From a virus, in IMG/VR virus record IMGVR_UViG_3300044695_002148, positions 1 through 31,078 of that record: a DNA stretch of 31,078 nt, one strand, 5' to 3'. Numbering within the stretch: position 1 is the stretch's first letter; the number at the start of each line of letters is the position of its first letter. The notes under the pieces were generated by a model. That model saw nothing but the letters and a program-made list of their open reading frames with translations, was not told the origin of the DNA and searched no databases. Of this stretch, positions 1 through 11,765 are shown piece after piece. Position numbers and translations under genes: made by a program.

Positions 1-8
1 TCAATTCC

Positions 9-482
9 ATGAGGAACAAGAAGTCTCAAGTCCTTGTTTATGACATGGTTCATCGGCAGTGGCGTGGGTGTGACTGGGTTCCTCCGCAGGATGAGGACAA
101 GGTTTCGTTGCTCTTGAGAACCATCAATGATCTCAAGCGTGATGTTGCGTATCTGAAGACCGCGGTGAAGAAGCATGAACGATCGATTGGCCAACTCGAA
201 AGGAAGCGTCCGGGTAAGCGTAAGGAGGAGGATGAATCGAAGAAGGAGGAGGAGGCTCCTAGCTACGAACCCGTCGTCGATGAAACATTGATGGAAGCAG
301 CGAAAAAAGCCTCTGCCGAGGAGGAAGAGGCTGGTGGAGAAGACTGGTGGAAAGCTATGCGCGCCGCCTTGGCCGATGTGGAGGTGGTTGCGGCTCCTTC
401 AGTTGCGCCCCGGTCATCATCATCGGGTTCCACTGCTCCCACAGAATACCCGTGGGAGAATGACGAAGATGAAGTGAGCTAG
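9..482 (+). CDS. Charged coiled-coil protein of unknown function, the only plus-strand gene
   Basis: I do not recognise this 157-aa protein. Residues about 30-65 carry heptad-like leucine/isoleucine spacing (for example LLRTINDLKRDVAYLKTAV) and probably form a coiled coil. Residues 65-110 are very rich in Lys and Glu, and the tail is Ser-rich and then acidic, ending in EDEVS. No enzyme motif is visible. Only eight bases precede the ATG and the frame is open to the window edge, so the start may lie outside the window and no ribosome binding site can be judged. It converges with the primase-helicase gene, and the two overlap by 128 bp at their 3' ends. The biased but non-random composition and the termination just past the neighbour's end suggest a real gene, perhaps from an opposite-strand transcription unit. 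It could still be a fortuitous ORF. Confidence 0.65.
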   Translation: MRNKKSQVLVYDMVHRQWRGCDWVPPQDEDKVSLLLRTINDLKRDVAYLKTAVKKHERSIGQLERKRPGKRKEEDESKKEEEAPSYEPVVDETLMEAAKKASAEEEEAGGEDWWKAMRAALADVEVVAAPSVAPRSSSSGSTAPTEYPWENDEDEVS

Positions 483-2139
483 ACTGGAGCCGCGATCCCC
501 GCTTGCAGAAGGCCAACTGGAACCTTCTAGGTTTGTTTTGGCCTACCTCATGGAGAACGGCTATCTCACGCGCCCAGTTGGCGAGTTCGCTGGAGCCGAA
601 GCCTGAGTGGGCCAGTTCCATTGTGGTGAGTGGTTCATTGCTTTCCTTACGCTGAGGTTTGGCAACGTGATGCATCCAGATCCAAGCGACCTTGGTCTCG
701 TGTAGGATGGGCTGGAGTTTGTTGCGAAGGAACACGCTGACCTCGCCCTGATCGCTGAGGTCACCGCCGAAGTAGCTGAAGAGTGGATCGGCCACGATGA
801 CATCGAGCTTGGATTTGTGGATGAACCGGCGGGCGTAGGCGAGGAACTGGTCGCCGGTACGGACGGCTTCGGTGCGGAAGTGGAGGTTTTCTTGGAGGAT
901 AGCGATCTCGCTGACGCTCATGTTGAGTCCTTTGATGACCCCGCGGAAGGCTTCGGCGAGGTCACCCTTGTCGTTCTCGGCCTGGATGACTCCGATCTTC
1001 AATCGCTTCACCGGCTTGATCCCGAAGAAGTCGAGGCCGAGGCACCAGCGGATGACGATCTGCATCATGAGGCTGGACTTCCCGATACCGGTACCACCGC
1101 TGATGATCATGGAGGAGCCGCGGGTGAGCCAGCGTTTGCCGATCAGGTTGTCGGGATCGTTGTCTGGATCGAAGTTGATGAGGTCTTTGATCGAGACCAC
1201 CGTGGACTTGTCATCATCGGTCTCCCGGGAGGTGAGGTAGTCTTCCCATGAAGCGGAGCCGAGGTTAGTGGCCAACAACTTTTGCTGGGACGTAGGACTC
1301 CGCCATGCGCCCGGGAGCCTGCTGTAGCGCGAGGGGTTCTTGTTCTTGGCATCGATGCCCGGGATCGACGAGTAGATAATATCCCGGCGGATGTCCCACT
1401 CCTTGCGGTTGGGAGCATCTACGCGGACCCAGCCATGGATACTCTTACCACCGGAGTCGATGAGTACGGTGATCGGTAGGCCAGAATCTCGGAATAGCTT
1501 CTCCTGTTCAGCCTTGGGCTTGTCATCGAACTCCACCAGGACATGGCGGTACGCGCTAACATCGTTGTCGGAGCCGCTGTAGAGGTTGGGCTTGAAGGGA
1601 TTGATGCGGACAAAGATCCCCTCGCGTTCCGGTGATAGGATGCGGGATGCCGGATCATCGAAGCGGGCGATCCATTCCTCGATGGGAATGAATGATCCAG
1701 CAGTGACTGGCCTACCCTCCTCGACGGCATCACAGATACAGACTACTTCGGTGGGTGCGAAGGCGGCTTGAAGGAACCGCTTGAACTCGCTGGCTTGAGG
1801 ATCGGGCGCAACTGCTGGTGACGGCCTCTTGAATGAGACCTTGGTGATATCGAATGGAGCGGTTGATGGGGATACCCCTGATTGAAGGAGATGGCCGGCT
1901 GGTTTGGAGTGAGACTTGGAAGCGGCTTCGCGGAGCTTGTGGATGAGTTCGCGCTCGGTCCAAGAGGGTTGGCAGGATTGATTCCAGCTTGAGAGCAGGG
2001 CTAGAGAGTCAGCCTCCGATAGCTGGAAGCCGTGTACGAGGCCGACGGCAGCGGTGTAGGTGGTTGAGTGTCCGGACTGGCCAGAGACGGCTGGCGGCAC
2101 CTTGGAAAGCCAAAGGGCCGCTCGTTGGAGCGGTGTCAT
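355..2139 (-). CDS. Primase-helicase fusion: PriCT-like, RepB-type AEP primase and RepA/SF4-type ATPase
   Basis: This 594-aa protein probably primes and unwinds phage DNA. Residues 1-75 look like a primase C-terminal (PriCT) domain, with KVPPAVSGQSGH and a WTERELIHKLREA helix. Residues about 115-300 match the RepB-like archaeo-eukaryotic primase group, with acidic VEFDD at 202-206 and the SxH motif in DSGGKSIHGWVRV at 228-240. Residues about 320-570 form a RecA-fold ATPase of the RepA/SF4 type: Walker A GGTGIGKS at 348-355, Walker B DVIVADP at 446-452, and WMHH at 488-491. A GTCCCAAACAAACA-type leader ends five bases before the ATG and there is no Shine-Dalgarno, as in other replication genes here. 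The last 43 codons overlap the convergent plus-strand gene, and the Pro/Arg-rich tail lies beyond the recognisable ATPase fold. Domain calls are from motifs; the function is inferred from the family. Confidence 0.9.
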   Translation of the reverse strand: MTPLQRAALWLSKVPPAVSGQSGHSTTYTAAVGLVHGFQLSEADSLALLSSWNQSCQPSWTERELIHKLREAASKSHSKPAGHLLQSGVSPSTAPFDITKVSFKRPSPAVAPDPQASEFKRFLQAAFAPTEVVCICDAVEEGRPVTAGSFIPIEEWIARFDDPASRILSPEREGIFVRINPFKPNLYSGSDNDVSAYRHVLVEFDDKPKAEQEKLFRDSGLPITVLIDSGGKSIHGWVRVDAPNRKEWDIRRDIIYSSIPGIDAKNKNPSRYSRLPGAWRSPTSQQKLLATNLGSASWEDYLTSRETDDDKSTVVSIKDLINFDPDNDPDNLIGKRWLTRGSSMIISGGTGIGKSSLMMQIVIRWCLGLDFFGIKPVKRLKIGVIQAENDKGDLAEAFRGVIKGLNMSVSEIAILQENLHFRTEAVRTGDQFLAYARRFIHKSKLDVIVADPLFSYFGGDLSDQGEVSVFLRNKLQPILHETKVAWIWMHHVAKPQRKESNEPLTTMELAHSGFGSSELANWAREIAVLHEVGQNKPRRFQLAFCKRGSRLQSSSLHLRHSPTGILWEQWNPMMMTGAQLKEPQPPPHRPRRRA

Positions 2140-2144
2140 ATCGT

Positions 2145-2159
2145 TGTTTGTTTGGGACC
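2145..2159 (-). promoter_or_regulatory. GGTCCCAAACAAACA leader motif before the primase-helicase
   Basis: Read on the minus strand this is GGTCCCAAACAAACA, five bases upstream of the primase-helicase ATG. Near copies precede the RuvC-like, helicase and DUF669-like genes. It could be a translation enhancer in place of a Shine-Dalgarno, a protein-binding site or a promoter element. Only the sequence similarity is certain. Confidence 0.5.
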
Positions 2160-2171
2160 GATCGTTGGGGG

Positions 2172-2297
2172 CTACTTCATTTTGTCTATCTTCATCAGCC
2201 GTTTGATGGCTTGGGTTTTGGGGGAATAGGTTCCGGTCTTCTTGGTGCTGGGCTTGGCGGCGTAGGCGGCGGCCTTGGCGGACTTAGCTTTCTTCAT
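2172..2297 (-). CDS. Short lysine-rich basic protein (41 aa)
   Basis: The protein is strongly basic with Ala/Lys repeats (MKKAKSAKAAAYAAKPSTKK) and a second basic helix, QAIKRLMKIDKMK. It has no recognisable domain but could bind nucleic acid. The ATG at 2297 overlaps the end of the 66-aa gene by 14 bases, and no Shine-Dalgarno is seen. The stop lies just before the leader of the primase-helicase gene. Composition and position in the packed operon support it; its small size keeps confidence moderate. Confidence 0.5.
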   Translation of the reverse strand: MKKAKSAKAAAYAAKPSTKKTGTYSPKTQAIKRLMKIDKMK

Positions 2298-2484
2298 AGG
2301 GTTTGAACTTGGTGTGGAATTCCGAGGTGAGGCGAACGTAGATGTTGCTGCCTCTTTGGTAGATGATGACGGGAGCTTTGAGTTCTGCGAGCCGATATTG
2401 GCCAACATGAAGGACCGTGACTATGACTCCAGAGTTGGATCGATTGACGAACCGGGAGGGTGGGAGAGTTGAGGGATTTTCCAT
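2284..2484 (-). CDS. Small conserved-looking protein of unknown function (66 aa)
   Basis: After a short polar start the protein is a beta-rich module: GVIVTVLHVGQYRLAELK, then PVIIYQRGSNIYVRLTSEF, then HTKFKPYEES. This looks like a small compact fold that phages often carry downstream of replication genes, but I cannot name a family. The ATG at 2484 lies inside the 3' end of the preceding gene, a 64-base overlap in another frame. The overlap is unusual, but no later start in this frame would keep the beta-rich core. Confidence 0.6.
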   Translation of the reverse strand: MENPSTLPPSRFVNRSNSGVIVTVLHVGQYRLAELKAPVIIYQRGSNIYVRLTSEFHTKFKPYEES

Positions 2485-2681
2485 ATGCGACGTTCGATGG
2501 GTTCGGGGTAAGCGATCCAGCCTTTAGCAATTCCCCAAGCAATTATCTGTGCGGACTGCTCGATGAGCCGGCGGTTCTCATCGGTGATGATGGTTCGTTC
2601 TTCTTCGGTTATGGGACCAGGTTTCTTATTATTTGAGAGGCGGGATTCGTACCAGGGTTGCTCTTGCCTTGGGGTCTTCAT
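2421..2681 (-). CDS. Hypothetical protein with a central amphipathic helix (86 aa)
   Basis: I do not recognise this protein. The N-terminal third is polar and basic. Residues 24-50 read as a helix, EEERTIITDENRRLIEQSAQ, followed by the hydrophobic IIAWGIAKGWIAY. The C-terminus is proline-rich. The start at 2681 is chosen because it gives an ATGA overlap with the preceding gene, the usual spacing in this operon; an upstream in-frame ATG at 2741 would run well into that gene. Confidence 0.65.
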   Translation of the reverse strand: MKTPRQEQPWYESRLSNNKKPGPITEEERTIITDENRRLIEQSAQIIAWGIAKGWIAYPEPIERRIWKIPQLSHPPGSSIDPTLES

Positions 2682-2923
2682 GAGGTGATGAGGCGAGCCA
2701 AGATACAGTTGCAGTAGGAACCCTTGGTCTTGGCGTTGCATCGACCATGATGCACAGGGTTGGAGATGATGTGTGCTGTAAGGTCGCTCGTGAGCTGGAC
2801 CAGCTCAAGGAGACGAGTGGATGCTTCTGCACAGAGCGCATTGGGGATTCCATCTTGGGTATCTAGTTCGGCTGATAGGATATTGAGCGCGTTGACGAGG
2901 TCGTGTGTTGAGGACTGTTTCAT
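2678..2923 (-). CDS. Small His/Cys-containing protein, possible metal-binding end (81 aa)
   Basis: The first 55 residues are helical (DLVNALNILSAELDTQDG and LLELVQLTSDLTAHII). The C-terminal part, NPVHHGRCNAKTKGSYCNC, holds two His and three Cys in a pattern that could bind zinc. No family is recognised. The gene overlaps both neighbours by ATGA, so it is almost certainly co-translated with the 86-aa genes on either side. The helical-plus-Cys layout suggests a small adaptor or DNA-associated protein, but that is inference. Confidence 0.7.
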   Translation of the reverse strand: MKQSSTHDLVNALNILSAELDTQDGIPNALCAEASTRLLELVQLTSDLTAHIISNPVHHGRCNAKTKGSYCNCILARLITS

Positions 2924-3180
2924 TTTTGTTTGTGGACTACGAGTCCGTTGCCTTTGGAATCAACCAGTTCTACGGATCGAACGCTCTCCATGCGGGCCAG
3001 AGTCTTGATCATCTCGATGGGATCATGGGCTTGGGACACGCAAGTGAGGTGGATATCACCATCTCCGTAGTTGGTCTTTAGATTCTCTTCGGTTCGATCA
3101 CGCACCACTCGGATGGTTCTTCCATCTGAGAGATGGACCACCTTGATGGATTCGACGAGCGGGAATGCGTGACGGCTCAT
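2920..3180 (-). CDS. Hypothetical alpha/beta protein (86 aa)
   Basis: No family is recognised. The sequence alternates beta strands (SIKVVHLSDGRTIRVVRD, DIHLTCVS) with a helix (PIEMIKTLARMESV) and ends in another strand pair, SVELVDSKGNGLVVH. It therefore looks like a small folded domain. It starts at an ATGA overlap with the HTH/alpha-CTD-like gene and ends at an ATGA overlap with the next gene. No Shine-Dalgarno is visible, so translation is probably coupled to the gene before it. Confidence 0.7.
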   Translation of the reverse strand: MSRHAFPLVESIKVVHLSDGRTIRVVRDRTEENLKTNYGDGDIHLTCVSQAHDPIEMIKTLARMESVRSVELVDSKGNGLVVHKQK

Positions 3181-3728
3181 TGCTTAGAGGTTTTACCGCA
3201 ATGGGGGCAGTGCCGGCCTAGACCGGGATCGGCGGGTAGAGTACCAAGCCACGAGCACAGATCGTGGTAGGATCGAACACCGAAGTTCGGCCACTTGAAC
3301 GGTACGATGTCACGGGTATGGATTGCATGGATGGCGGTCTCCTTGTCTTTGATGCCAAGCTTCTCCATCAAGTTCGCGTTGCGAGAACTGAGACCCGCGG
3401 TCCATTTGTTATTCGAGGCATCCCGCTTCTTGCCGGCGGCGATGATCTGGAACACCCGTTGCTTTGAGATGTTTAACTCTGCACCGATAGCTTTGTAGGT
3501 AAGTCCCTTAACCCTGAATCCTCTTACCTTATCGATTGAATCGTTGGTTTTCATGTATGTATGTTTGAGATACTTTCTTTTTTTCTTCTTTGGTTCTTTA
3601 TCTATTGCAACGGTATCTGGACCGCTCGATACCGTTTCTGTGCTTTGTGGCACTGGACGCACAGGCCGGTTTGAGTTGTGCATCCGCATCCCAAGCATGC
3701 GGCCAATTCGTGACATAACAGTTTCCAT
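3177..3728 (-). CDS. Putative transcription regulator: HTH plus an RNA polymerase alpha-CTD-like domain
   Basis: This 183-aa protein has three recognisable parts. A Lys/Arg-rich disordered start (1-60) is followed by a helix-turn-helix at about 68-99 (GLTYKAIGAELNISKQRV), like sigma region 4 or resolvase HTHs. Residues about 112-165 match the C-terminal domain of RNA polymerase alpha closely: LSSRNAN at 113-119 aligns with LTVRSAN, and PNFGVRS at 147-153 aligns with PNLGKKS. The residues equivalent to the DNA-contacting Arg265, Asn268, Gly296 and Ser299 are kept, and Arg replaces Lys298. The tail has HCPHCGK. Role inferred: a DNA-binding regulator, perhaps at UP-element-like sites or contacting host polymerase. 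The ATG at 3728 has a weak GAGG ten bases upstream. A start at 3554 (MKTNDSID) would remove the disordered region and most of the overlap with the Cys-rich ORF. Confidence 0.8.
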   Translation of the reverse strand: METVMSRIGRMLGMRMHNSNRPVRPVPQSTETVSSGPDTVAIDKEPKKKKRKYLKHTYMKTNDSIDKVRGFRVKGLTYKAIGAELNISKQRVFQIIAAGKKRDASNNKWTAGLSSRNANLMEKLGIKDKETAIHAIHTRDIVPFKWPNFGVRSYHDLCSWLGTLPADPGLGRHCPHCGKTSKQ

Positions 3729-3784
3729 CGTTGTAGTTCCTCTATTGTTTGTTTGGTTGTTTGTTCTTGATGTTCCATACGCAT
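3602..3784 (-). CDS. Possible small Cys-rich (zinc-ribbon-like) protein overlapping the neighbouring frames
   Basis: The ORF encodes up to 60 aa; ATGs at 3784 and 3778 are both possible. A charged helical start (TIEELQRWKLLCHELA) leads into CLGCGCTTQTGLCVQCHKAQ, a CxxCxC plus CxxC arrangement typical of a small zinc-binding module. It overlaps the end of the 80-aa HTH gene and the start of the alpha-CTD-like gene. If that gene truly starts at 3554 the two would sit side by side with little conflict. The regular Cys spacing argues that this frame codes. The heavy overlap argues caution. Confidence 0.4.
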   Translation of the reverse strand: MRMEHQEQTTKQTIEELQRWKLLCHELAACLGCGCTTQTGLCVQCHKAQKRYRAVQIPLQ

Positions 3785-3984
3785 GAATGCGAGATACCGT
3801 ATTTCTTGGCCAACTCCCTGTAGGTGAATGTTGAGTTATCCCTGAGAATCGATTCCCGAATCTTTGCTGGAACAGCTTCCCACCGCCGGCAGATCAATGG
3901 ATCAGGGGCTTTGAAGGCGGGAACTGGTCCCAACATCTTCGCCATTGACTCCTTCGTCAACCCCAATTCTTGAAGTAGACTCAT
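3742..3984 (-). CDS. Small helix-turn-helix protein (80 aa)
   Basis: The C-terminal half holds a clear HTH: IRESILRDNSTFTYRELAKK followed by YGISHSCVWNIKNK. This is the layout of small terminase-subunit-like or resolvase-like DNA-binding domains. The N-terminal half (LLQELGLTKESMAKMLGPVP) is an unassigned helix. The ATG at 3984 is preferred over a TTG two codons earlier; only a weak GAG lies upstream. Its last codons are themselves a copy of the CAACCAAACAAACAA-type sequence that precedes several replication genes. It probably binds DNA as a local regulator; the target is unknown. Confidence 0.7.
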   Translation of the reverse strand: MSLLQELGLTKESMAKMLGPVPAFKAPDPLICRRWEAVPAKIRESILRDNSTFTYRELAKKYGISHSCVWNIKNKQPNKQ

Positions 3985-3991
3985 TTTCAAT

Positions 3992-4060
3992 CTACTCGCT
4001 CTTCATCGGTGTGGACTGAACGCCATTATAGGCCACATGGGCATCGACTATATGGCTCAC
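3992..4060 (-). CDS. Microgene of 22 codons in the coupled operon
   Basis: A GTG at 4060 forms a GTGA overlap with the preceding gene and has a strong AAGGAGG eight bases upstream. The ORF reads MSHIVDAHVAYNGVQSTPMK and ends with a further SE. This initiation signal is as good as those of the larger neighbours, so it is likely translated. The peptide has no recognisable motif and could be only a degenerate remnant of a duplicated cassette. Confidence 0.4.
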   Translation of the reverse strand: MSHIVDAHVAYNGVQSTPMKSE

Positions 4061-4236
4061 AGATTAACCTCCTTCTCGCTCCACAATAATAGATCCGCTC
4101 GCATTGCGTCGTTCTCTGTTTCGAGTTGCGTGATGTAAGCCAGTCGCACCGCTGCGAGTCGCTCCAGCCTCCTGCACAGCATACCCAGCTCGGCTACGTT
4201 GTGCGGGGTTGAGTCGGATATGGGGGTGTCGCTCAC
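4057..4236 (-). CDS. Short coiled-coil protein, family B (59 aa)
   Basis: The GTG at 4236 follows AAGGAGGTGAAGCC and overlaps the preceding stop as GTGA. The protein starts MSDTPISDS, continues with the helix MLCRRLERLAAV, and ends QLETENDAMRADLLLW plus a short tail. The last motif is nearly the same as QLESENDALRADLLLW in the 131-aa gene at 5195-5590, so these two are paralogues. Function is unknown; the heptads suggest oligomer formation. Confidence 0.65.
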   Translation of the reverse strand: MSDTPISDSTPHNVAELGMLCRRLERLAAVRLAYITQLETENDAMRADLLLWSEKEVNL

Positions 4237-4529
4237 GGCTTCACCTCCTTCCCAATCTTAGCGTCGTCCCATCCTTGCAACAGGTTGTCCATTCGGATGG
4301 TCCTCATGCTCGGAGATGGAGGGTTGATGAATGCGTACATTGCGTTGCCAGCTATTTCGAGTTCTCGGATGCGCTGATCGTAGAACTTCCTCTCCCCTTC
4401 GAGCTTGTCCCACAGAGCGCGGAGACGGTTTTCGAGTTGGGTGACGTGCTGCTTAAGATCTTCGTTCTCTTTCGCCATTGCTCCGATGGATTTGCACAAG
4501 CGTTCGTGCGCTTCGTGTTCGGGGTTCAT
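4233..4529 (-). CDS. Coiled-coil small phage protein, family A (98 aa)
   Basis: The ATG at 4529 follows AAGGAGAACAAGCA and overlaps the previous stop (ATGA). Residues about 15-60 are a long coiled coil (KENEDLKQHVTQLENRLRAL and on to QRIRELEIAGNAM). It ends GWDDAKIGKEVKP. RIRELEIAGNAM is a diverged copy of the DRIkxLxxaGDxM motif shared with genes at 4526, 5587 and 6017. The terminal KEVKP codons also form the Shine-Dalgarno for the next gene, so coding and initiation signals are shared. Function is unknown. Confidence 0.75.
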   Translation of the reverse strand: MNPEHEAHERLCKSIGAMAKENEDLKQHVTQLENRLRALWDKLEGERKFYDQRIRELEIAGNAMYAFINPPSPSMRTIRMDNLLQGWDDAKIGKEVKP

Positions 4530-4894
4530 TGCTTGTTCTCCTTTGCTCGCTGCCATGCGTTGGCCAGCAACCGATAGTTTGAGTCGGAAATGGTACCGTC
4601 CTTCAGCCACTCAAGCAGTTCGTCGCCAGTACTCTTCATCAGCTTGATCCGATCTTGCAGGTACTCGACCAGCTCCTTCAGCTCGTTCACATCGGATTGA
4701 AGCTCCCTGATCTTAGCTGCTTGTGCGTCGGCAAACCATTGCTCCTTCATAATCCGAAGCACTTCTTTGGCTGCATCAGTAGCGGGTATGGATTCGTTGA
4801 CCGTGAATCCACCATCCAGATCAACCCGCATGATCTGGGTGCTTGGATTCGATATCGGGTGGCTGTTGGTTGAAAAGTAGATTGGTTCGCTCAT
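4526..4894 (-). CDS. Coiled-coil small phage protein, family A (122 aa)
   Basis: The start at 4894 (MSEPIYFS) is chosen for its AAGGAGTGCAA Shine-Dalgarno and ATGA overlap. Residues 1-45 look like a small beta module, IMRVDLDGGFTVNESIPATD, comparable with LRIRSDGSFEIQKGAP in the 96-aa gene at 6017. A coiled coil follows, then DRIKLMKSTGDELLEWL and the terminal AWQRAKENKQ. It thus has the same order of modules as the gene at 6017-6307, so the two are paralogues. Function is unknown. Confidence 0.8.
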   Translation of the reverse strand: MSEPIYFSTNSHPISNPSTQIMRVDLDGGFTVNESIPATDAAKEVLRIMKEQWFADAQAAKIRELQSDVNELKELVEYLQDRIKLMKSTGDELLEWLKDGTISDSNYRLLANAWQRAKENKQ

Positions 4895-5091
4895 TTGCAC
4901 TCCTTCCATTTGAATTGAGTCGGACCTCCGCCAGCGCATCTAACCCACTCGGCGCGTCCTGCTTTGACTGCTGCTTCCTGATCTATGTGCCGCGTCATTG
5001 AACCGCCCACCATGAATCCAATTACAAACACCACTGAGAGTATCATGCCGTTCGTCAGTGCGTCTGAGTAGAATGCGATTACGTTTCTCAC
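4891..5091 (-). CDS. Small single-pass membrane protein (66 aa)
   Basis: The GTG at 5091 follows AAGGAGGTGAAGCC and overlaps the preceding stop as GTGA. A short polar start is followed by one transmembrane segment, GMILSVVFVIGFMVGGSM (residues about 16-33), then a polar region with two Cys, WVRCAGGG and WKECK. It probably inserts in the inner membrane. No family is recognised, and position among non-lysis genes gives no clear hint of its role. Confidence 0.7.
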   Translation of the reverse strand: MRNVIAFYSDALTNGMILSVVFVIGFMVGGSMTRHIDQEAAVKAGRAEWVRCAGGGPTQFKWKECK

Positions 5092-5198
5092 GGCTTCACC
5101 TCCTTCTTTCTGCATTTATGGAAGAACGGGAACATGAATCGACCAATCCATCCTATCAGTTCTCCGCACTTCTGGCAGCAATAGCTTGGATACTTCAT
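5088..5198 (-). CDS. Very short Cys-rich protein (36 aa)
   Basis: The ORF reads MKYPSYCCQKCGELIGWIGR, then FMFPFFHKCRKKEVKP. The pattern CCxxCG and HKC could form a small zinc site. The ATG at 5198 overlaps the preceding stop (ATGA) and a GGAGG lies ten bases upstream. The last codons contain the Shine-Dalgarno of the next gene, as in its neighbours. Coupling on both sides supports translation despite the size. Confidence 0.6.
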   Translation of the reverse strand: MKYPSYCCQKCGELIGWIGRFMFPFFHKCRKKEVKP

Positions 5199-5590
5199 GG
5201 CAACGGCCCTCCATTCTCCCACAGCAACAGATCAGCGCGGAGTGCATCGTTCTCGGATTCGAGTTGCTTGATCCGATCCTCCAGTTTTCGCACCTGAAAG
5301 GCGATTGCGCGGAGTTCGCGTGGATGGTTGCAATCGGGAGACTCCGCTAGGAAAAGGATTCGTTGTTCTTCTTCTGTAAGTTTGTGCGCTTTGGATTGAT
5401 CATCGTTTTCCAGTTCTTTGGAACAATCGTCAGGAATCACGAAGTATTCCTTCTGTTCCCAATTCCATGTTGGGACGTACAGAATTTCCAACAACGGTTC
5501 CATTGATCTTGTAGGTCGAGTTCCGACCTTCTTTCCGTTTGCGTATGCAATCATCACGTTTGCAGCGTTCAGCACTTCTTGTTTTGTCAT
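5195..5590 (-). CDS. Small phage protein with a C-terminal coiled coil, family B (131 aa)
   Basis: The start at 5590 (MTKQEVLNAANVMIAYANG) has AAAGGAGACGAA upstream and an ATGA overlap. Residues 1-75 look like a folded domain with strands PLLEILYVPTW and KEYFVIPDD. A short acidic linker leads to the helix ELRAIAFQVRKLEDRIKQL and the family B ending ENDALRADLLLW. The N-terminal domain is absent from its 59-aa paralogue at 4057, so the coiled-coil tail behaves as a mobile module. Function is unknown. Confidence 0.8.
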   Translation of the reverse strand: MTKQEVLNAANVMIAYANGKKVGTRPTRSMEPLLEILYVPTWNWEQKEYFVIPDDCSKELENDDQSKAHKLTEEEQRILFLAESPDCNHPRELRAIAFQVRKLEDRIKQLESENDALRADLLLWENGGPLP

Positions 5591-5826
5591 TTCGTCTCCT
5601 TTGCTTTTGCCCACAGTTTAGCGGATTGTTCAGTAGCGTACGGCTCCATGATGTCTCCTGCTGCCGTGAGCGTTTTGATTCTGTCGTTTGCTTGGTTCAG
5701 TTCGTTCTTAAGTTTTACAACAACATGATGCGTGTGCTTCATGTTCACTTCGTTTTCCAGCTCAATGATTCGCTTTTGAGCTTCGACCAATTGATCGAAA
5801 AGGCTTTTGCTGTTTTGATTTGTCAC
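5587..5826 (-). CDS. Coiled-coil small phage protein, family A (79 aa)
   Basis: The GTG at 5826 is selected because it follows AAGGAGGCCAAGCC and overlaps the previous stop (GTGA). Almost the whole protein is coiled coil: LFDQLVEAQKRIIELENEV, then KLKNELNQANDRIKTLTAAG. It ends with DIMEPYA and LWAKAKETK, the family A signature. It lacks the N-terminal beta module of the genes at 4526 and 6017. Function is unknown; an oligomerising or adaptor role is only a guess. Confidence 0.75.
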   Translation of the reverse strand: MTNQNSKSLFDQLVEAQKRIIELENEVNMKHTHHVVVKLKNELNQANDRIKTLTAAGDIMEPYATEQSAKLWAKAKETK

Positions 5827-6020
5827 GGCTTGGCCTCCTTGATGACTAGAAGTACACCCATGTAAACCATCCAAACGGCTCCGATCGGTATCAGCCAAAA
5901 CAGCCGGAAGATCTGTCCAAAGTCATACTGCCCGCTGGAACGGTATGGCCTGAACATGATGCACAGCAGGATTACGGTGATGAGTGCTGGCACGATCCAC
6001 GATTTGATTGTGATGCTCAC
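5823..6020 (-). CDS. Small two-span membrane protein (65 aa)
   Basis: The GTG at 6020 follows AAGGAGGACAAACC and overlaps the preceding stop as GTGA. Two hydrophobic segments are seen: IVPALITVILLCIMF (about 8-22) and IFRLFWLIPIGAVWMVYMGV (about 36-55), joined by a short polar loop. It could be an inner-membrane protein of the early region. A holin role is possible from topology but the neighbours are not lysis genes. The last residues, KEAKP, come from the Shine-Dalgarno of the next gene. Confidence 0.7.
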   Translation of the reverse strand: MSITIKSWIVPALITVILLCIMFRPYRSSGQYDFGQIFRLFWLIPIGAVWMVYMGVLLVIKEAKP

Positions 6021-6307
6021 GGTTTGTCCTCCTTGGCTTTGTTCCATTTTGAAACAGTGTGCTGCACTGCATCCAACCGCTCATCGCGCAGCCATGCCTC
6101 CATCTTATCTCCCGCCTCCTCCAGCCGACGGATGCGGTCCTGCTGCTTCAGGAATGCGTGAACCAATTCACCCAGCACAAACAGAGTTGGTGCGCCTTTC
6201 TGGATTTCAAACGATCCGTCTGAGCGGATCCTCAGAAACTCAGCGTTTGGTTTTGCGTCGTTCCATTTGATAAGTGTTGCGTTGCTCATGTTGTTTGTGT
6301 CGCTCAC
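6017..6307 (-). CDS. Coiled-coil small phage protein, family A (96 aa)
   Basis: The GTG at 6307 (MSDTNNMSN) follows AAGGAGGCCAAGCC and overlaps the previous stop. A short beta module, FLRIRSDGSFEIQKGAP, is followed by the helix LGELVHAFLKQQDRIRRLEE, then AGDKMEAWL and the terminal KWNKAKEDKP. The order of modules is the same as in the 122-aa gene at 4526-4894. Function is unknown. Confidence 0.8.
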   Translation of the reverse strand: MSDTNNMSNATLIKWNDAKPNAEFLRIRSDGSFEIQKGAPTLFVLGELVHAFLKQQDRIRRLEEAGDKMEAWLRDERLDAVQHTVSKWNKAKEDKP

Positions 6308-6582
6308 GGCTTGGCCTCCTTTTCTTTTCTTCCTATCTCTTCTCCTTTAAGAATAGCTTCTACTAGACACACATCTCCGTAGTCAACGTGCTCACGGAAG
6401 AGTTCGATCTCACGCTCCAGCCGCTTGATGCGGTCGTTTGCTGCGTTGAGTTCGCGTTCGAGTTGGCGAGCTAAGTCAACATCTACGGTTGGATAACCAT
6501 CTCCTCCATCAGGTTTCCACGCACAATCCGTTCTCGGTGTATCGCTGATCATTTTCGTGGGGTCAGGAATATGATCGCTCAT
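6304..6582 (-). CDS. Small phage protein with an SDTPRTD motif and coiled coil (92 aa)
   Basis: The ATG at 6582 follows AAGGAGGCGAA and overlaps the stop of the 51-aa gene. ISDTPRTDCAW followed by DLARQLERELNAANDRIKRL is a recurrent layout in small proteins of phage early regions; the function of that group is not known to me. The coil part closely matches NELNQANDRIKTL in the gene at 5587. It ends GRKEKEAKP, again encoding the next Shine-Dalgarno. This gene seems closest to a founder of the local coiled-coil family. Confidence 0.8.
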   Translation of the reverse strand: MSDHIPDPTKMISDTPRTDCAWKPDGGDGYPTVDVDLARQLERELNAANDRIKRLEREIELFREHVDYGDVCLVEAILKGEEIGRKEKEAKP

Positions 6583-6734
6583 TTCGCCTCCTTGGATTTG
6601 CGGTTCCTAGTCCAGTAACTGAACGCATAGTTCTTCACCTTCTTAGCCGCTTTGTGGATTTCTCCGGCTTCCTTCTTGGTGATACTGTAAACTCCGGTAC
6701 CGCTATCGATGAAGCTCTTGATTTTGTCGCTCAT
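6579..6734 (-). CDS. Small basic protein (51 aa)
   Basis: The ORF starts MSDKIKSFIDSGTGVYSITK, continues with a basic helix, KKEAGEIHKAAKKVKNYAFS, and ends RNRKSKEAK. It has a net positive charge of about ten. The ATG at 6734 has GGAGG six bases upstream and an ATGA overlap with the RuvC-like gene; its own stop overlaps the next start. It may bind DNA or RNA, but no family is recognised. Confidence 0.65.
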   Translation of the reverse strand: MSDKIKSFIDSGTGVYSITKKEAGEIHKAAKKVKNYAFSYWTRNRKSKEAK

Positions 6735-7186
6735 CGGCCACCTCCGAGTGCGTAGTGCAGCACCAGCAGGGCGTCACAGTTCTTGAGCGTGACGTCTAAT
6801 TGCGGATACAGCTCCTGGGCCTTGCTCTTAAGCTTACGCTTCCATTCAGGACCAGTAGCGCATGAACGCTTGCCACCGAGTCCAAGAGGATCCTGCCAGA
6901 TCTTGGGTTCGACGCGATGAAGCGCGTAACCTTGAGAGTAGGCCAGTCCTTGGACGATGCCGTAGTTTTCATGGAGCGTTGCCACGCTTGCTGAGGGCGT
7001 GAGCTTGGACACGAACTTGGGTACCTTCTCGATCCATAGGTGACTGTCCGCCACCTTGAATCCGCTGAGGAGTTGCGCCATATCCGGTAAGGATTCGGGC
7101 ATTGCGAAGAGAAGGATGCCGTCCTTGGTGTGGATAGCGAACCCCCCGTTTACGCCTGGGTCACAGGCTACGATTGTTTTGTTCAT
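6731..7186 (-). CDS. RuvC-like Holliday-junction resolvase (151 aa)
   Basis: The protein has an RNase H-like fold of the RuvC type and should cut branched DNA during replication or packaging. The first strand carries the catalytic Asp in IVACDPGVNGGFAI (residues 4-17, Asp8). A second acid lies in LWIEKVP (about 60-66), and the last motif is KNCDALLVLHYAL near 135-147. Length is normal for phage RuvC-like nucleases. The ATG at 7186 is preferred over a start at 7231 because the N-terminus then begins right at the first strand. It has no Shine-Dalgarno but a GGTCCCAACAAACAAA leader five bases upstream. The neighbouring helicase and annealing genes fit a recombination module. Confidence 0.88.
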   Translation of the reverse strand: MNKTIVACDPGVNGGFAIHTKDGILLFAMPESLPDMAQLLSGFKVADSHLWIEKVPKFVSKLTPSASVATLHENYGIVQGLAYSQGYALHRVEPKIWQDPLGLGGKRSCATGPEWKRKLKSKAQELYPQLDVTLKNCDALLVLHYALGGGR

Positions 7187-7298
7187 TGGTTTTTGTTTGT
7201 TGGGACCGAATAGTGAGAGAGTGGCCGACATAGATCCCGGCGATCACGCACAGTGGCAGCAGTACTGCCATGCCCATGATAGTCAGTGCGGTGTTCAT
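7161..7298 (-). CDS. Small membrane protein between helicase and resolvase (45 aa)
   Basis: The ORF begins MNTALTIMGMAVLLPLCVIA, continues GIYVGHSL and ends in a polar tail. It has one transmembrane segment (about 5-25). Its ATG overlaps the helicase stop (ATGA), and its 3' end overlaps the start of the RuvC-like gene by 26 bases, crossing that gene's leader motif. Coupled start and a clean membrane segment support it. No family is recognised. Confidence 0.55.
   Translation of the reverse strand: MNTALTIMGMAVLLPLCVIAGIYVGHSLTIRSQQTKTNEQNNRSL
7192..7207 (-). promoter_or_regulatory. GGTCCCAACAAACAAA leader motif before the RuvC-like gene
   Basis: On the minus strand this is GGTCCCAACAAACAAA, five bases before the resolvase ATG. 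It is a one-base-shorter variant of the motif preceding the primase and helicase genes. It also lies within the small membrane-protein ORF. Function is unknown. Confidence 0.45.
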
Positions 7299-9457
7299 GG
7301 GATCGAGCATCCAAGTTCCTTGTAGCACTTGACCCGTTTCTTGGAGTGAGCCTGAGCCAGAGGATGGAAGGTGTCCTTGAAGTCGTGGATGATCGCAGTG
7401 TCCTTACCTGGTGCCCGCCGCAGCGCACGGCTGGCCCGCTGGATGGTTTTCTGTGCGGACCGCCCTCCAGATACCATTACGAGGGTGTGGACGTTAGGAA
7501 GGTCAAGCCCCTCATCGGCCAGCGAGGTGGCGATCATGGTTGAGATGTTCCCTGCCTTGAACTCTTCCATCGCTTCCCGGCGATGCTTCTTCGGCATCTT
7601 CGAGTGAACGAGTACGGAGCCTCTCAATGACATGTTGTAATATTCTCCGAGTGTGACTCGGGGAACCAGAACCAGCGTGGGGTATTTAGGACTACCGGAT
7701 GCGGCCATCATGATCGCCATATCGTTTCTGGCCCTGTTCCCACAGATACCGATCTCAGTGAGTGCTTCCCAAGCGCACATGGCCCGAAGGATGGGCTGAC
7801 TGACTTGCATGTACCGTTTCCGATCAATGAACAGCCTCTCGATTTGATCATCGATCTTCTGCTGGAGATGTAGGTCAGTGGCAGAGTGCATGTAGATGTT
7901 GGCGTGAGCGAGTACACCGGCCAGTTCATCACGACGGATCTCGAACTGGGTATCGCGGAACATCTTACGAAGGATCTCGTTACGCTCGGGATCATCGGAC
8001 CAAGGAGTGGCATCGAATCCGAAGCGAAGTCCTTTGCAGGACTCGATAATCTTACGCCAGGTGGTCGCCGGCGCATGCTTGCAGTTGTGGACTAGGATTC
8101 CGTTGGCGAAGTAATTCTCATTTCCTTCAACCGAGAAATTGTAGACATGATCTTCTCCGCGCATTGCTCGGCTCCAAGAAGGACTTCCTTGTTGGTGAAC
8201 CTCAACACGCACCACCCGAGTGAATTGAGTGTTTCGGTTTTCTTTTTGTCCGCAGCCTTCCTGCTGATTGAACTGTGAGAAGACCCGTCTACTTCTATCG
8301 CCAGCTTCACTAAAGGCTCCGCAAGATCCACCTTGTAACAGTTTGGAACCTTCGCGATTCCGCTTCCCGCTGTCGGTATCGCATACTCCATTAGAAGGTT
8401 GCACATGAATGAGAGCGTATGCTGACTTAATGTTGGTCCTGTTCCATTTCCCCCACGAACCTTCGGCTTGTGGTCGATCAGTTTGAGCGATTCCGAGATA
8501 CGCTTCCTGGTCTGATCGGATACAGTCCTCGCTGACATCCATTTGGAAATCTTGTCGCCCATCCGTTTGTTCGTGGCCGACATTGTTTCCGAACTCATTT
8601 TTGAAACCATCAAGTCCCGACACTGAATCGAGCAGTAGGCTCGACCTCGTTTGAGTGCATCCAAACTCTTGTGAGCTGGAGTTCTTCCCATGCATGTGAC
8701 CGGCGTCTTGCACCATGCACATTGAGTTTCCACGCGCTTTCTCTTCTCGAACCGAAGAACGGTTTTGCATTGCTCGCAAACCGGCTTTCGGGTTGTTGAG
8801 AAATGACCGTTTCTTTCGGTCGTCGATCCGCATTCTCTGCATTCCATGTTCATGCGTTGGAATGATGGCAACCACATCGTTTGATGTCAAGCTGGCGGCT
8901 GGAACGTAGTCGAACCCATTCCAGAATGGATGACCTGGGGTACAGGTGACTGGCCCGTTTTCAGTCCAAATTGTCACCATCGTGTCAGGAGCCGGTGTCT
9001 TGAAAACCTCAAGAACCCTCCGTTTTTCAATGGATTTAGAATCATGGTTATAGGAATCGACAAGGTCTCCAGCCTTGATTTGGCTGATTGGCTTGTCGCC
9101 AATTTGAACCCACGATGGGAAACATTCATCAACGATGATCAGGTTCTTACGGGAGAAATCTACGGAGTCATGGGGGCAACGAACCTCGACCCGTGAAGTA
9201 TCGACTCCTACTGCTATGAGCGAAGCGATTGCTTGCTGGCAGGTCTCACGGGTAGGAGCAAGCCAACCAAAGGTCCACTCGGGCCATCGAGCAAAGTGCT
9301 TGATGATGGAAGAGGCGATGACGGTCTTTCCGCATCCAGCAGGAGCGATAATGAGTCCATCGGCTCCAGACTTAGCCCACTCGACGGCTCGTTGCTGGTA
9401 GGGACGAAGCAGAAATGCTTGCGTCGAATTGGTTTCGGGATGATCTTTGGTCTGCAT
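7295..9457 (-). CDS. SF2 DNA helicase interrupted by an intein in motif II
   Basis: The 720-aa precursor should yield a helicase of about 373 aa after protein splicing. Before the intein: Q-like LRPYQQRAVEW (17-27), motif I APAGCGKT (38-45), motif Ia LAPTRE (66-71) and IIVDE (107-111). The intein runs from Cys112 to Asn458. After it: CKHAPATTW completes motif II, then motif III-like FDATPWSDD, motif V ATSLADEGLDLP and motif VI QRASRALRRAPG. This is the set of a phage SF2 (UvsW/RecG-like in broad terms) helicase, likely for replication or branch processing. The ATG at 9457 is chosen over an in-frame GTG at 9511, which lies inside a hairpin. A GTCCCAAACAAACA leader is 17 bases upstream. Without splicing, motif II would be split and the helicase inactive. 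Confidence 0.92.
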   Translation of the reverse strand: MQTKDHPETNSTQAFLLRPYQQRAVEWAKSGADGLIIAPAGCGKTVIASSIIKHFARWPEWTFGWLAPTRETCQQAIASLIAVGVDTSRVEVRCPHDSVDFSRKNLIIVDECFPSWVQIGDKPISQIKAGDLVDSYNHDSKSIEKRRVLEVFKTPAPDTMVTIWTENGPVTCTPGHPFWNGFDYVPAASLTSNDVVAIIPTHEHGMQRMRIDDRKKRSFLNNPKAGLRAMQNRSSVREEKARGNSMCMVQDAGHMHGKNSSSQEFGCTQTRSSLLLDSVSGLDGFKNEFGNNVGHEQTDGRQDFQMDVSEDCIRSDQEAYLGIAQTDRPQAEGSWGKWNRTNIKSAYALIHVQPSNGVCDTDSGKRNREGSKLLQGGSCGAFSEAGDRSRRVFSQFNQQEGCGQKENRNTQFTRVVRVEVHQQGSPSWSRAMRGEDHVYNFSVEGNENYFANGILVHNCKHAPATTWRKIIESCKGLRFGFDATPWSDDPERNEILRKMFRDTQFEIRRDELAGVLAHANIYMHSATDLHLQQKIDDQIERLFIDRKRYMQVSQPILRAMCAWEALTEIGICGNRARNDMAIMMAASGSPKYPTLVLVPRVTLGEYYNMSLRGSVLVHSKMPKKHRREAMEEFKAGNISTMIATSLADEGLDLPNVHTLVMVSGGRSAQKTIQRASRALRRAPGKDTAIIHDFKDTFHPLAQAHSKKRVKCYKELGCSIP
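8084..9124 (-). mobile_element. Intein (347 aa) with the endonuclease gene in another frame
   Basis: The intein begins at Cys112 of the precursor (CFPSWVQIGDKPISQIKAGD, block A) and ends in VHN with Cys as the first extein residue. Block B is GPVTCTPGHPFW with the TxxH motif. Block F is VYNFSVEGNENYFANG and block G is NGILVHN/C. All residues needed for class 1 splicing (Cys1, TxxH, penultimate His, Asn, Cys+1) are present. The N-terminal splicing part is about 82 aa and the C-terminal part about 25-45 aa. Between them about 240 codons of the host frame have no recognisable domain; the same DNA encodes a homing endonuclease one base out of phase. Insertion directly after Asp-Glu of helicase motif II is a typical conserved-site choice for inteins. 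Confidence 0.93.
8092..8877 (-). CDS. Homing endonuclease nested out of frame in the intein: Cys pairs, NUMOD3-like motif, VSR-like nuclease
   Basis: The 261-codon gene starts with ATG at 8877, four codons after an in-frame TGA, so it cannot be an in-frame part of the intein. Residues 13-86 hold Cys pairs at 13/16, 34/37, 53/56 and 82/86, likely zinc-binding. Residues about 109-133 (KISKWMSARTVSDQTRKRIS, then ESLKL) resemble the NUMOD3 DNA-binding helix of homing endonucleases. Residues about 155-235 look like the VSR/DUF559 nuclease fold: Glu164, IEVDGSSH (Asp197, His201), ADKKK (Asp210) and GWCVLRF, matching the EDxHD order. It should cut intein-less helicase alleles. No Shine-Dalgarno is seen before 8877 or before ATGs at 8853 and 8847, so how it is translated is unclear. 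Its last codons overlap intein blocks F and G. Confidence 0.85.
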   Translation of the reverse strand: MWLPSFQRMNMECRECGSTTERNGHFSTTRKPVCEQCKTVLRFEKRKRVETQCAWCKTPVTCMGRTPAHKSLDALKRGRAYCSIQCRDLMVSKMSSETMSATNKRMGDKISKWMSARTVSDQTRKRISESLKLIDHKPKVRGGNGTGPTLSQHTLSFMCNLLMEYAIPTAGSGIAKVPNCYKVDLAEPLVKLAIEVDGSSHSSISRKAADKKKTETLNSLGWCVLRFTNKEVLLGAEQCAEKIMSTISRLKEMRITSPTES

Positions 9458-9474
9458 AGCGTTCGTTGCGACTA

Positions 9475-9488
9475 TGTTTGTTTGGGAC
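9475..9488 (-). promoter_or_regulatory. GTCCCAAACAAACA leader motif before the helicase
   Basis: The minus strand reads GTCCCAAACAAACA, 17 bases before the helicase ATG. It is identical over 14 bases to the motif before the primase-helicase gene. The upstream hairpin at 9496-9521 ends seven bases before it. Function is unknown. Confidence 0.5.
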
Positions 9489-9495
9489 TCGATCA

Positions 9496-9521
9496 CCCCC
9501 GGGAGCTGCACCTCCCGGGGG
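9496..9521. terminator. Perfect 10-bp GC-rich hairpin between the DUF669-like and helicase genes
   Basis: CCCCCGGGAG and CTCCCGGGGG pair perfectly around a six-base loop. On the minus strand no T-run follows (TGATCGAG), so it does not look like a standard intrinsic terminator for the operon. On the plus strand it is followed by the T-rich CTTTCGTTTGT and could stop antisense transcripts. It may also be an attenuator, a processing site or an mRNA stabiliser that lowers helicase expression. The structure is certain, the role is not. Confidence 0.5.
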
Positions 9522-9535
9522 CTTTCGTTTGTAGG

Positions 9536-9955
9536 TTAGATGGCGTCGAGATCAGCGGGCACTTTCTTCATGCGGCGCACTCGGAAGGTCGTTTGTTCGG
9601 CACCATGCTTGTCGGTGTACTTCTCTTCCTCGATCACGATCACGAGGGACAAGCCAACGAATCCCTGCAAGAACCGTAGGAAAGCCCCTCCAATGCTAAA
9701 ATCGAACTCATCTCCATCGGCGATGTTAGCTTCGGTGGCACTGATGAGTGCCTGAAGCCGCCACATCATGGTGTCCTTGAGAACGAAGCGGTCGCTGATG
9801 ACTTCGCCCGCTGGCCCCTTGTACCGGAGGGTTGCGACGGCGTTACCGCTCTTGTCGAGTCCATCGTCCTTACAGGAGTTGACGGTGACGGTGTATTCGC
9901 CGGGAGCGGCGAACGGCTTAACTTCTGCGGATGCGCGATCTACTTTAAATGTCAT
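9536..9955 (-). CDS. DUF669-like phage replication/recombination protein (139 aa)
   Basis: The protein is an OB-fold-sized domain: EYTVTVNSCKDDGLDKSGNA, then ATLRYKGPAGEVISDRFVLK, then TMMWRLQALISA, then LSLVIVIEEEKYTDKHG and a basic end. This order (strands, a 'trade-off' loop with KSGN, a W-containing helix and a final strand pair) matches DUF669 proteins, which sit beside recombination genes and are thought to bind single-stranded DNA. The neighbours RecE-like, RecT-like and helicase fit that. The ATG at 9955 is preceded by a GTCCGAATAACAAACA leader rather than a Shine-Dalgarno; a much longer upstream frame overlaps the nuclease gene and is a shadow. Confidence 0.78.
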   Translation of the reverse strand: MTFKVDRASAEVKPFAAPGEYTVTVNSCKDDGLDKSGNAVATLRYKGPAGEVISDRFVLKDTMMWRLQALISATEANIADGDEFDFSIGGAFLRFLQGFVGLSLVIVIEEEKYTDKHGAEQTTFRVRRMKKVPADLDAI

Positions 9956-9974
9956 ATGATTGTGCGTTGGTTGA

Positions 9975-9990
9975 TGTTTGTTATTCGGAC
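9975..9990 (-). promoter_or_regulatory. GTCCGAATAACAAACA leader motif before the DUF669-like gene
   Basis: The minus strand reads GTCCGAATAACAAACA, 19 bases before the ATG. It keeps the GTCC start and AACAAACA end of the motif but differs in the middle, so it is the weakest of the four copies. It overlaps the last codons of the nuclease gene. Confidence 0.35.
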
Positions 9991-10757
9991 TGACGAGCCG
10001 CCCACGCGGGCAGCGAGAGTGTTTGGGTAGTGGAAGGGTAACAAGGCCAAGAGTTGAGTTCTTGGCATTCGATAAACGTGCGGAGCTGCTCGTCGATAAT
10101 GGAGTTACCAAGATCGATGGCCTGCCGGTCGAGTTCGTAGCAGCAGACTCCATAGGGTGCTTCCTTCTCGACTGCGATGAAGATGAACCGGTTGATGCCG
10201 GTGATGCGCTGATACCAAGCGGCTTGAACATGGTAGCGGAACTGAGCGCAACTCTTAGCGAACGCCGCGAGGCTGGCGTCTTGGGTGGTCTTGAGGTCGA
10301 TGATGTAATCCTTGCCGATCCCATCGATACGGGCTTTGACCTCGATGCCGGACCATTCGGCGAAGTAGGAGACCTCGGTCTTGATACCATCCAGTAGGCC
10401 AGCAGCAGTGGGATGAGCGTAAACCGCATCGGCTGCTCCGGTGAGGTTGTTCCACTGATCTTGAGGCAGCGGGATCTGTCCGTTGTCGATGATCAGTTGG
10501 TAGTCTTCTTTACCCTGCTTGGTGCGACGATCACCAGTGAACATCCTGTAGGTGAGGATAAAGCGTTCCGGCTCCAACACGGCGCAATGGGCGGCGGTAC
10601 CGAACTCCAGCGCGGGACTGGATTCGTTGCGGGTCTTTCCATCCTGCCAAGAGCGGAAGTGCGCGGGCGACTTGCGGAACTGATCGAGACCAGACTTCGA
10701 GAGTGCCTTCGCCTCGTGGTAATCCGCGGCGGGCATGTCGTTCATGATATCAACCAT
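9981..10757 (-). CDS. RecE-like PD-(D/E)XK exonuclease (258 aa)
   Basis: This protein resembles RecE/exonuclease VIII C-terminal nucleases that resect double-stranded ends to feed an annealing protein. Visible motifs: HEAKALSKSGLDQFRKSPAH (14-33 region), FGTAAHCAVLEPERF with the conserved GTxxH, VKARIDGIGKDYIIDLKTT with catalytic Asp and Asp-x-Lys, and YHVQAAWYQRI, the QxxxY helix. The ATG at 10757 has a strong GGAGG six bases upstream and overlaps the RecT-like stop by eight bases; a second ATG at 10745 is possible. Pairing with the gene just upstream gives a RecE/RecT-type two-component recombination system, common in phages. Confidence 0.88.
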   Translation of the reverse strand: MVDIMNDMPAADYHEAKALSKSGLDQFRKSPAHFRSWQDGKTRNESSPALEFGTAAHCAVLEPERFILTYRMFTGDRRTKQGKEDYQLIIDNGQIPLPQDQWNNLTGAADAVYAHPTAAGLLDGIKTEVSYFAEWSGIEVKARIDGIGKDYIIDLKTTQDASLAAFAKSCAQFRYHVQAAWYQRITGINRFIFIAVEKEAPYGVCCYELDRQAIDLGNSIIDEQLRTFIECQELNSWPCYPSTTQTLSLPAWAARQSE

Positions 10758-11541
10758 TGGAAACCTCCGTGGTGGCGATCTCAGGGGTGACGATGACGGC
10801 GAGCTTGGACAGGATGAGGTCCGGCTTGGAGATGTACTTGGAAGCGACCGCATCGGGGAGATCGCGGAATGTCTGACCATCCTGAATGCGACCGGCTTTG
10901 AGGAGCAGGGCGTTAACCTCTTGCTCGCGATCCTCGAACAGGGCTTCGAGTTTGGCGGTGATGTCGAAGCTCTTGGTAGGAGCGACCGATACCTCGGTGA
11001 GAGCGGGGGTAAACTCCTCGGTCTCCTCCGGTGTGTAGATGCCGGCCACAACCTCAGGGGCGAGCATGCGAACCGCTTTGGATATACAACGAGCGCGGAG
11101 CATTGCGGAAGGATCCTTGGCCCATCCAGACCCCGGCTTGGCGGGCAATAAGCCGGCCATCTTAGCGTCCTCGGTGGTGAAGGAGATCTCGCAAGCGTTG
11201 CCGTCGTAGGTCCAGAGGGCGATGGCGGCGCGGGAGTCGAACTGCTTCCAGAGGATCTTGCCTCCGCGGGCACGGTAACCGGCGAGCATTGCGTCTGAGC
11301 GCATGCTGAGGGAGCCGTTGATGATGTGGTATTCTCTCTTGAAATCGAACGGGGTCTTCTTCTCGGCGGCGCATTGCCACGCGATAAGCTTACCTTGTTC
11401 GACCTTGGTGCAGCCAAGCATTCCGCTGGCCGCGATCCACTCGCCCATCTTTTCAATGGCACTGATGGGGTCTTGGATCTTGGAGTACATCTCGGAGTTA
11501 TCCGAGGGTTGGGGGGTTGTCGTTGCGATTGAGTTGTTCAT
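10750..11541 (-). CDS. RecT-like single-strand annealing protein (263 aa)
   Basis: The central region carries the RecT-family layout: EWIAASGMLGCTKVEQGKLI, then REYHIINGSLSMRSDAMLAG, then SGWAKDPSAMLRARCISKAV with RMLAPEVVAGIYTPEE. The last part is the typical 'P..ML.aRa.s.a.R...Pev..G.yt.eE' stretch. The Ser/Thr/Gln-rich start and the C-terminal third (after about 200) are variable, as usual. It should bind single strands made by the RecE-like nuclease and anneal them. The ATG at 11541 is chosen for its ATGA overlap with the HTH gene; a longer frame upstream is a shadow of that gene. Confidence 0.82.
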   Translation of the reverse strand: MNNSIATTTPQPSDNSEMYSKIQDPISAIEKMGEWIAASGMLGCTKVEQGKLIAWQCAAEKKTPFDFKREYHIINGSLSMRSDAMLAGYRARGGKILWKQFDSRAAIALWTYDGNACEISFTTEDAKMAGLLPAKPGSGWAKDPSAMLRARCISKAVRMLAPEVVAGIYTPEETEEFTPALTEVSVAPTKSFDITAKLEALFEDREQEVNALLLKAGRIQDGQTFRDLPDAVASKYISKPDLILSKLAVIVTPEIATTEVSNG

Positions 11542-11711
11542 TGTGGGTTTTGTCTGAGTAGTTCCTCGATTACATCGGAGCGGACACGGATGGTGCGCTT
11601 CGTCGCCTTCATGGCTGGAAGTTTTCCTGACCGGATCCACCGACGCACCGTCTCGGGATGAGTCCCGAGGGCGGATGCGATCTCTTGGACGGTTAGAAGT
11701 TTTACGCTCAC
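11538..11711 (-). CDS. Small MerR/excisionase-type HTH protein (57 aa)
   Basis: The sequence starts KLLTVQEIASALGTHPETVR and continues with RWIRSGKLPAMKATKRT and IRVRSDVIEELL. This is the winged HTH of small excisionase or MerR-like DNA-binding proteins. It is the first gene of the replication block, so it may control that transcription unit; no integrase is seen, so an excision role has no support here. No ATG is available: GTG at 11711 is chosen because the domain begins immediately after it, and a TTG at 11738 is also possible. No Shine-Dalgarno precedes either. Confidence 0.75.
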   Translation of the reverse strand: MSVKLLTVQEIASALGTHPETVRRWIRSGKLPAMKATKRTIRVRSDVIEELLRQNPQ

Positions 11712-11765
11712 GCAAGCCAAAGTAGCAGCGTGTTGCAAACTGTCGAGAGTTTTCTTTCGGAAAGT
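11712..11765 (-). promoter_or_regulatory. Boundary between virion and replication genes, possible promoter
   Basis: This 54-base gap follows the last virion gene and precedes the HTH gene. On the minus strand it holds AAACT-6-AGTTT, a small inverted repeat, and TCGACA followed 16 bases later by TACTTT, a weak sigma-70-like pair. A short GC-rich stem at the end of the virion gene has no T-run. A promoter for the replication block is expected near here, but these matches are weak. Confidence 0.3.

Follow-up and report, generated by a model that had tools for sequence, protein, structure and literature searches.

The C-terminal domain of the RNA polymerase alpha subunit (alpha-CTD) reaches into the minor groove with R265 and N294 in the closed complex of E. 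coli, and its K291 and K298 contact phosphates (PMC7822876). Phage-encoded alpha-CTDs outside RpoA are already on record in the Goe8 'RNA polymerase subunit alpha', Mazun gp26 and Ruegeria V16 gp23, and the protein described here joins them in this respect; they differ from it in carrying other partner domains, no detected sigma-4 HTH and a canonical CTD that scores above cut-off. We also considered SPO1 gp27.1, which is encoded beside a sigma gene (E 0.4-0.5), and dismissed it as a chance match because its sequence and Pfam scan were without an alpha-CTD. A literature search of partial coverage returned no description of a fusion between an HTH and an alpha-CTD-like domain of the present kind.

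The window analyzed here is a 31,078-nucleotide stretch of virus DNA (IMG/VR record IMGVR_UViG_3300044695_002148) whose minus strand contains an ATG-started ORF (3177-3728) encoding a 183-aa protein. An initial annotation had proposed that this protein combines an HTH with an alpha-CTD-like domain followed by a Cys pair. That architecture was upheld by family profiles, a domain-only structural model and residue conservation, and both the preceding HTH and the trailing pair (C174-PH-C177) are present. The gene, its conservation, the HTH, the alpha-CTD-like fold and the retained contact residues are all computed results. Scanning IMG/VR yielded 116 confirmed relatives of the fusion protein, with 48-99% identity to the window protein among those aligned. 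Across the HTH and alpha-CTD body, variable sites at codon positions 1, 2 and 3 number 71, 56 and 93 of 103, a bias toward the third position in line with purifying selection acting on a gene. Together, the 116 relatives and this codon-position pattern indicate that ORF 3177-3728 is a genuine gene. A Shine-Dalgarno-like AGAGGA (3738..3743, minus strand) lies 9 nt 5' of the ATG and overlaps the stop of the upstream HTH gene; it is retained in nearly all relatives examined and is absent from two (L108 and L109). No entry in Pfam, PHROGs or NCBIfam spans the whole fusion family. The closest PHROGs each cover a part of it, with phrog_686 (HTH DNA binding protein) matching the HTH at E 1e-6 and phrog_24281 matching residues 115-156 at E 0.003 for the protein, and neither spans both domains.

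The N-terminal residues 1-42 (METVMSRIGRMLG...; 3603..3728, minus strand) are encoded in an overlap with a second conserved frame. Whereas the body varies most at the third position, variable sites at positions 1, 2 and 3 of this overlap number 11, 2 and 5 of 42. The second frame is a Cys-rich 60-aa ORF (3602..3784, minus strand) that overlaps the start of the fusion gene and contains the motif CHELAxCLGCGCTxQxGLCVQCHKA. It is present at 79/79 loci, its Cys-rich core is open and conserved in 38 of the 38 relatives listed, and its product is likely to bind zinc. We asked whether residues 1-42 might be untranslated, with their conservation being a mere shadow of the Cys-rich ORF. This is countered by the Shine-Dalgarno-like site and by the low variability of both frames, as there is little variation in either and both look constrained. 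These two observations argue that the overlapping frames are both translated, with the ATG as the putative start of the fusion protein.

Residues 59-107 (3408..3554, minus strand) form a sigma-region-4-like HTH, identified through a Sigma70_r4 match and through model matches. Sigma70_r4 (PF04545) is the best Pfam match of this segment (E 0.00025) at 21.0 bits, below the curated cut-off of 24.1 bits, and relatives score up to 23.2 bits. Sigma70_r4 matches were found in 11/11 virus records searched, with the fusion-gene HTH being the top place in the window. In the full-length model the HTH is predicted to adopt the sigma-4 helical fold, and many chains of sigma region 4 align with it at Z 7-8; because NarL-type and archaeal HTHs score Z 8-9, it can be called at most 'sigma-4-like'. 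HTH chains filled up the VIA-align matches of this full-length model, and its pTM of 0.38 means that the mutual placement of the HTH and the alpha-CTD-like domain is not fixed by the model.

We consider it very probable that residues 108-164 (3237..3407, minus strand) constitute an alpha-CTD-like helix-hairpin-helix domain, which emerges from a structure match, hhalign and reciprocal ranks. The profile match to alpha-CTD that the initial annotation had set as a check did not appear when PF03118 was searched with the window protein alone, and emerged at the level of the family. The curated cut-off of RNA_pol_A_CTD (PF03118) is 23.8 bits and no family member reaches it, with 5/16 members matching weakly in a Pfam scan (best E 0.071); the domain as judged by this threshold is outside PF03118. 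Over 19 whole virus records, PF03118 nonetheless picked out only two places, both in the fusion gene (E 0.0035, 11.8 bits; E 0.017). No alpha-CTD match exceeded the threshold in Pfam, NCBIfam or PDB-sequence searches, whether the query was the window protein or the family profile. When the family domain was compared with 13 RpoA CTDs by hhalign, we observed a score of 33.2 (E 2.5e-6), where 300 shuffles of the columns averaged 9.7 and peaked at 19.0, and a wider CTD set gave 32.4 against a shuffle maximum of 22.0 and 14.0 for the reversed profile. The window clade alone was borderline, at 23.8 versus a shuffle maximum of 23.9. In decoy tests against E. coli, rpoA came first of 599 ORFs by hmmsearch (at E 2.6, so that rank alone counts) and top of 167 ORFs by hhalign, and in the reverse search an RpoA-CTD profile placed four fusion-family members at ranks 1-4 of 868 virus ORFs. 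Collectively, these comparisons indicate that the alpha-CTD likeness exceeds chance at the family level.

The AlphaFold2 model of the domain alone (108-164; pLDDT 78.7) points the same way. VIA-align returned two matches at Z >= 2 and both are alpha-CTDs, namely 8hih (54 residues aligned at 2.6 A, Z 5.5) and the alpha subunit of 8pil (Z 4.1); a plain Foldseek search with this model gave nothing significant and listed neither. The predicted structure can thus be superposed on an alpha-CTD across 54 residues, a comparison that the initial annotation had proposed, and provides evidence of moderate strength that the alpha-CTD helix-hairpin-helix fold is present. The C-terminal tail (3180..3236, minus strand) carries C174 and C177, which together with C158 are invariant in the family, and zinc-ribbon Pfam matches to it are weak. 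These invariant cysteines, along with the lack of a significant Pfam, PDB-sequence or plain Foldseek match, would suit a convergent likeness in which a generic helix-hairpin-helix/SAM-like domain binds DNA non-specifically or C158, C174 and C177 build a zinc-binding protein-contact module. We judge such convergence quite improbable, given that the profile-profile comparison and the reciprocal rankings single out alpha-CTD and that the anchor residues are in register.

Closer inspection of the contact residues separates the faces of the domain. Both quoted motifs, L113-S-S-R116-N-A-N119 and P147-N148-F-G150-V-R152-S153, are present in the window protein. Among the UP-element contacts said to be kept, the equivalents of Arg265 (R116), Gly296 (G150) and Ser299 (S153) are invariant in the family, but the Asn268 equivalent, N119, is mostly replaced across the relatives, by K, H, S, T, L and other residues, and must be struck from the list. 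N148, equivalent to N294, is also invariant; K145 (K291) and R152 (K298) are occupied by K/R in nearly all members, with T at the K298 position in one, and the E302 position is D156 throughout. D259 and E261, the sigma-contact residues of alpha-CTD, correspond to T110 and G112 and are not kept, and the activator-contact 287 determinant (285-288) is not conserved in the family. Residue conservation suggests that the DNA-contact face is retained and the protein-contact faces are lost, a pattern that fits DNA-binding use better than protein-contact mimicry. The idea that a copied domain mimics or competes with the host, replacing host alpha-CTD at UP elements or sequestering sigma or activators, found no positive support. 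A sigma-4-like and alpha-CTD-like pair on one chain does resemble -35/UP neighbors, and a retained DNA-contact face would be compatible with this role; in light of the T110/G112 substitutions and the lost activator-contact region, however, we hold a polymerase mimic to be possible but improbable, and less supported than either a two-module regulator or an origin binder.

The origin binder arises from the gene neighborhood. In practically every relative, one strand carries in order an 82-aa HTH protein gene (3742..3990; 78/78 relatives, same strand, weak HTH Pfam matches), the fusion gene, an 86-aa protein gene whose start overlaps the fusion-gene stop (2920..3180; 82/83; no credible Pfam family for its product), an 81-aa ORF (2678..2923; 82/82), a 106-aa ORF (2421..2741; 81/81) and a primase/helicase gene (355..2139; phrog_2597 DNA primase, E 7e-49; 79/79), all on the minus strand in the window, with each count referring to relatives with enough flank. 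Upstream of this cassette are RecT-like, exonuclease VIII-like, SSB-like, helicase and RuvC-like genes. A run of small, partly coiled-coil-looking ORFs also occupies 4233-6582 upstream, and the two that were tested occur in only 9/60 and 9/51 relatives, unlike the invariant cassette downstream.

Helix-hairpin-helix domains are common in replication and recombination proteins, and the fusion protein could be one of these, using its HTH and helix-hairpin-helix domain to bind structured DNA or the origin of the phage and helping to load the downstream primase-helicase. Due to its linkage to the primase-helicase, which is invariant (79/79) and usually accompanied by a RuvC-like gene (30/32), this is the strongest rival to a role in transcription, and the RecT-like, exonuclease VIII-like and SSB-like genes of the surrounding module are in keeping with it. 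Set against this are the specific resemblance of the helix-hairpin-helix domain to alpha-CTD, including the R265, K291, N294 and K298 equivalents, the absence of RuvA from the best scores although it was in the E. coli decoy set, and the likeness of the HTH to sigma region 4. We therefore regard a replication or recombination function as somewhat unlikely.

Our preferred reading, to which we assign about an even chance, is that the fusion protein is a two-module phage DNA-binding regulator of promoters. A gut phage-labelled record speaks for it, as one of its proteins combines HTH_17, Sigma70_r4 and RNA_pol_A_CTD, each scoring above cut-off. On the other side, adjacency to the primase-helicase suits replication equally well, and scores below the PF03118 cut-off, a Foldseek search with nothing significant, a borderline window clade and a pTM of 0.38 all temper the assignment. 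As a regulator, the protein would most likely be made with the replication-module operon and would switch transcription by binding at a small number of sites close to promoters of the phage (or host). Its sigma-4-like HTH would read the major groove, the R265 and N294 equivalents of the helix-hairpin-helix domain would insert into a neighboring minor groove that is narrow and probably AT-rich, and the K291 and K298 equivalents would grip the DNA backbone. DNA binding, site preference, timing and direction of regulation are in this scheme what we infer. An unlikely further reading is a portable -35/UP reader, whose fused modules would occupy the upstream promoter half without RNA polymerase and thereby either shut off promoters of the host or nucleate polymerase on those of the phage. 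If AT-rich minor grooves are indeed bound next to an HTH site, the family would offer a simple model of phage promoter readers built from polymerase parts.

No target site for the fusion protein was found. Sigma-70-type promoter-like sites are rarer than expected within 1-12000, with 1 observed against 7.4 +/- 2.9 in shuffles, and their scarcity may reflect phage use of other promoters. T7-type RNA polymerase (PF00940) had no match in 14 records, but the control was also unmatched in this search, so the absence carries no weight. Separately, the helicase gene at 7295-9511 (minus strand) contains an intein at 8081-9124, and a 261-aa DUF559/Vsr-like endonuclease-type ORF (8092-8877, minus strand; PF04480, E 1.8e-12) sits wholly within the intein coding stretch in another frame. 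The intein and the Vsr-like ORF occur in only 2/19 related records, and the intein is 99% identical as opposed to 89% for the helicase flank; this distribution and the identity contrast suggest that the intein is mobile and that an endonuclease gene is encoded out of frame within it.

Compared with the E. coli RpoA CTD (PF03118), the fusion domain shares a helix-hairpin-helix over ~54 residues, the LxVRxxN and NxGxxS motifs and the equivalents of R265, K291, N294, G296, K298 and S299, and it differs in a short insertion before the hairpin, seen in the profile alignment, and an extra CxxC tail. The whole protein is 183 aa long and, in contrast to RpoA, has no alpha NTD match. The nearest counterpart in architecture is a protein of MT835636 (L117), a gut phage-labelled scaffold, in which a sigma-4-like HTH is likewise followed by an alpha-CTD. 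That protein has in addition an N-terminal HTH_17, a long linker and a canonical alpha-CTD well above cut-off, and it does not have the CPHC tail; as MT835636 is an unverified metagenome scaffold, the likeness is one of architecture and not established as shared descent. Scans of genome contigs with the fusion family, and separately with the MT835636 protein, yielded no confirmed relatives in bacteria, and the collection contained no phage isolate that proved close. Here a phage protein would have taken over, as one of its modules, the polymerase's grip on upstream DNA, within a widespread family from uncultivated phages that current domain libraries miss. HTH and alpha-CTD fusions are already in public phage-labelled records, and the present family is a more divergent one that carries a CPHC tail.
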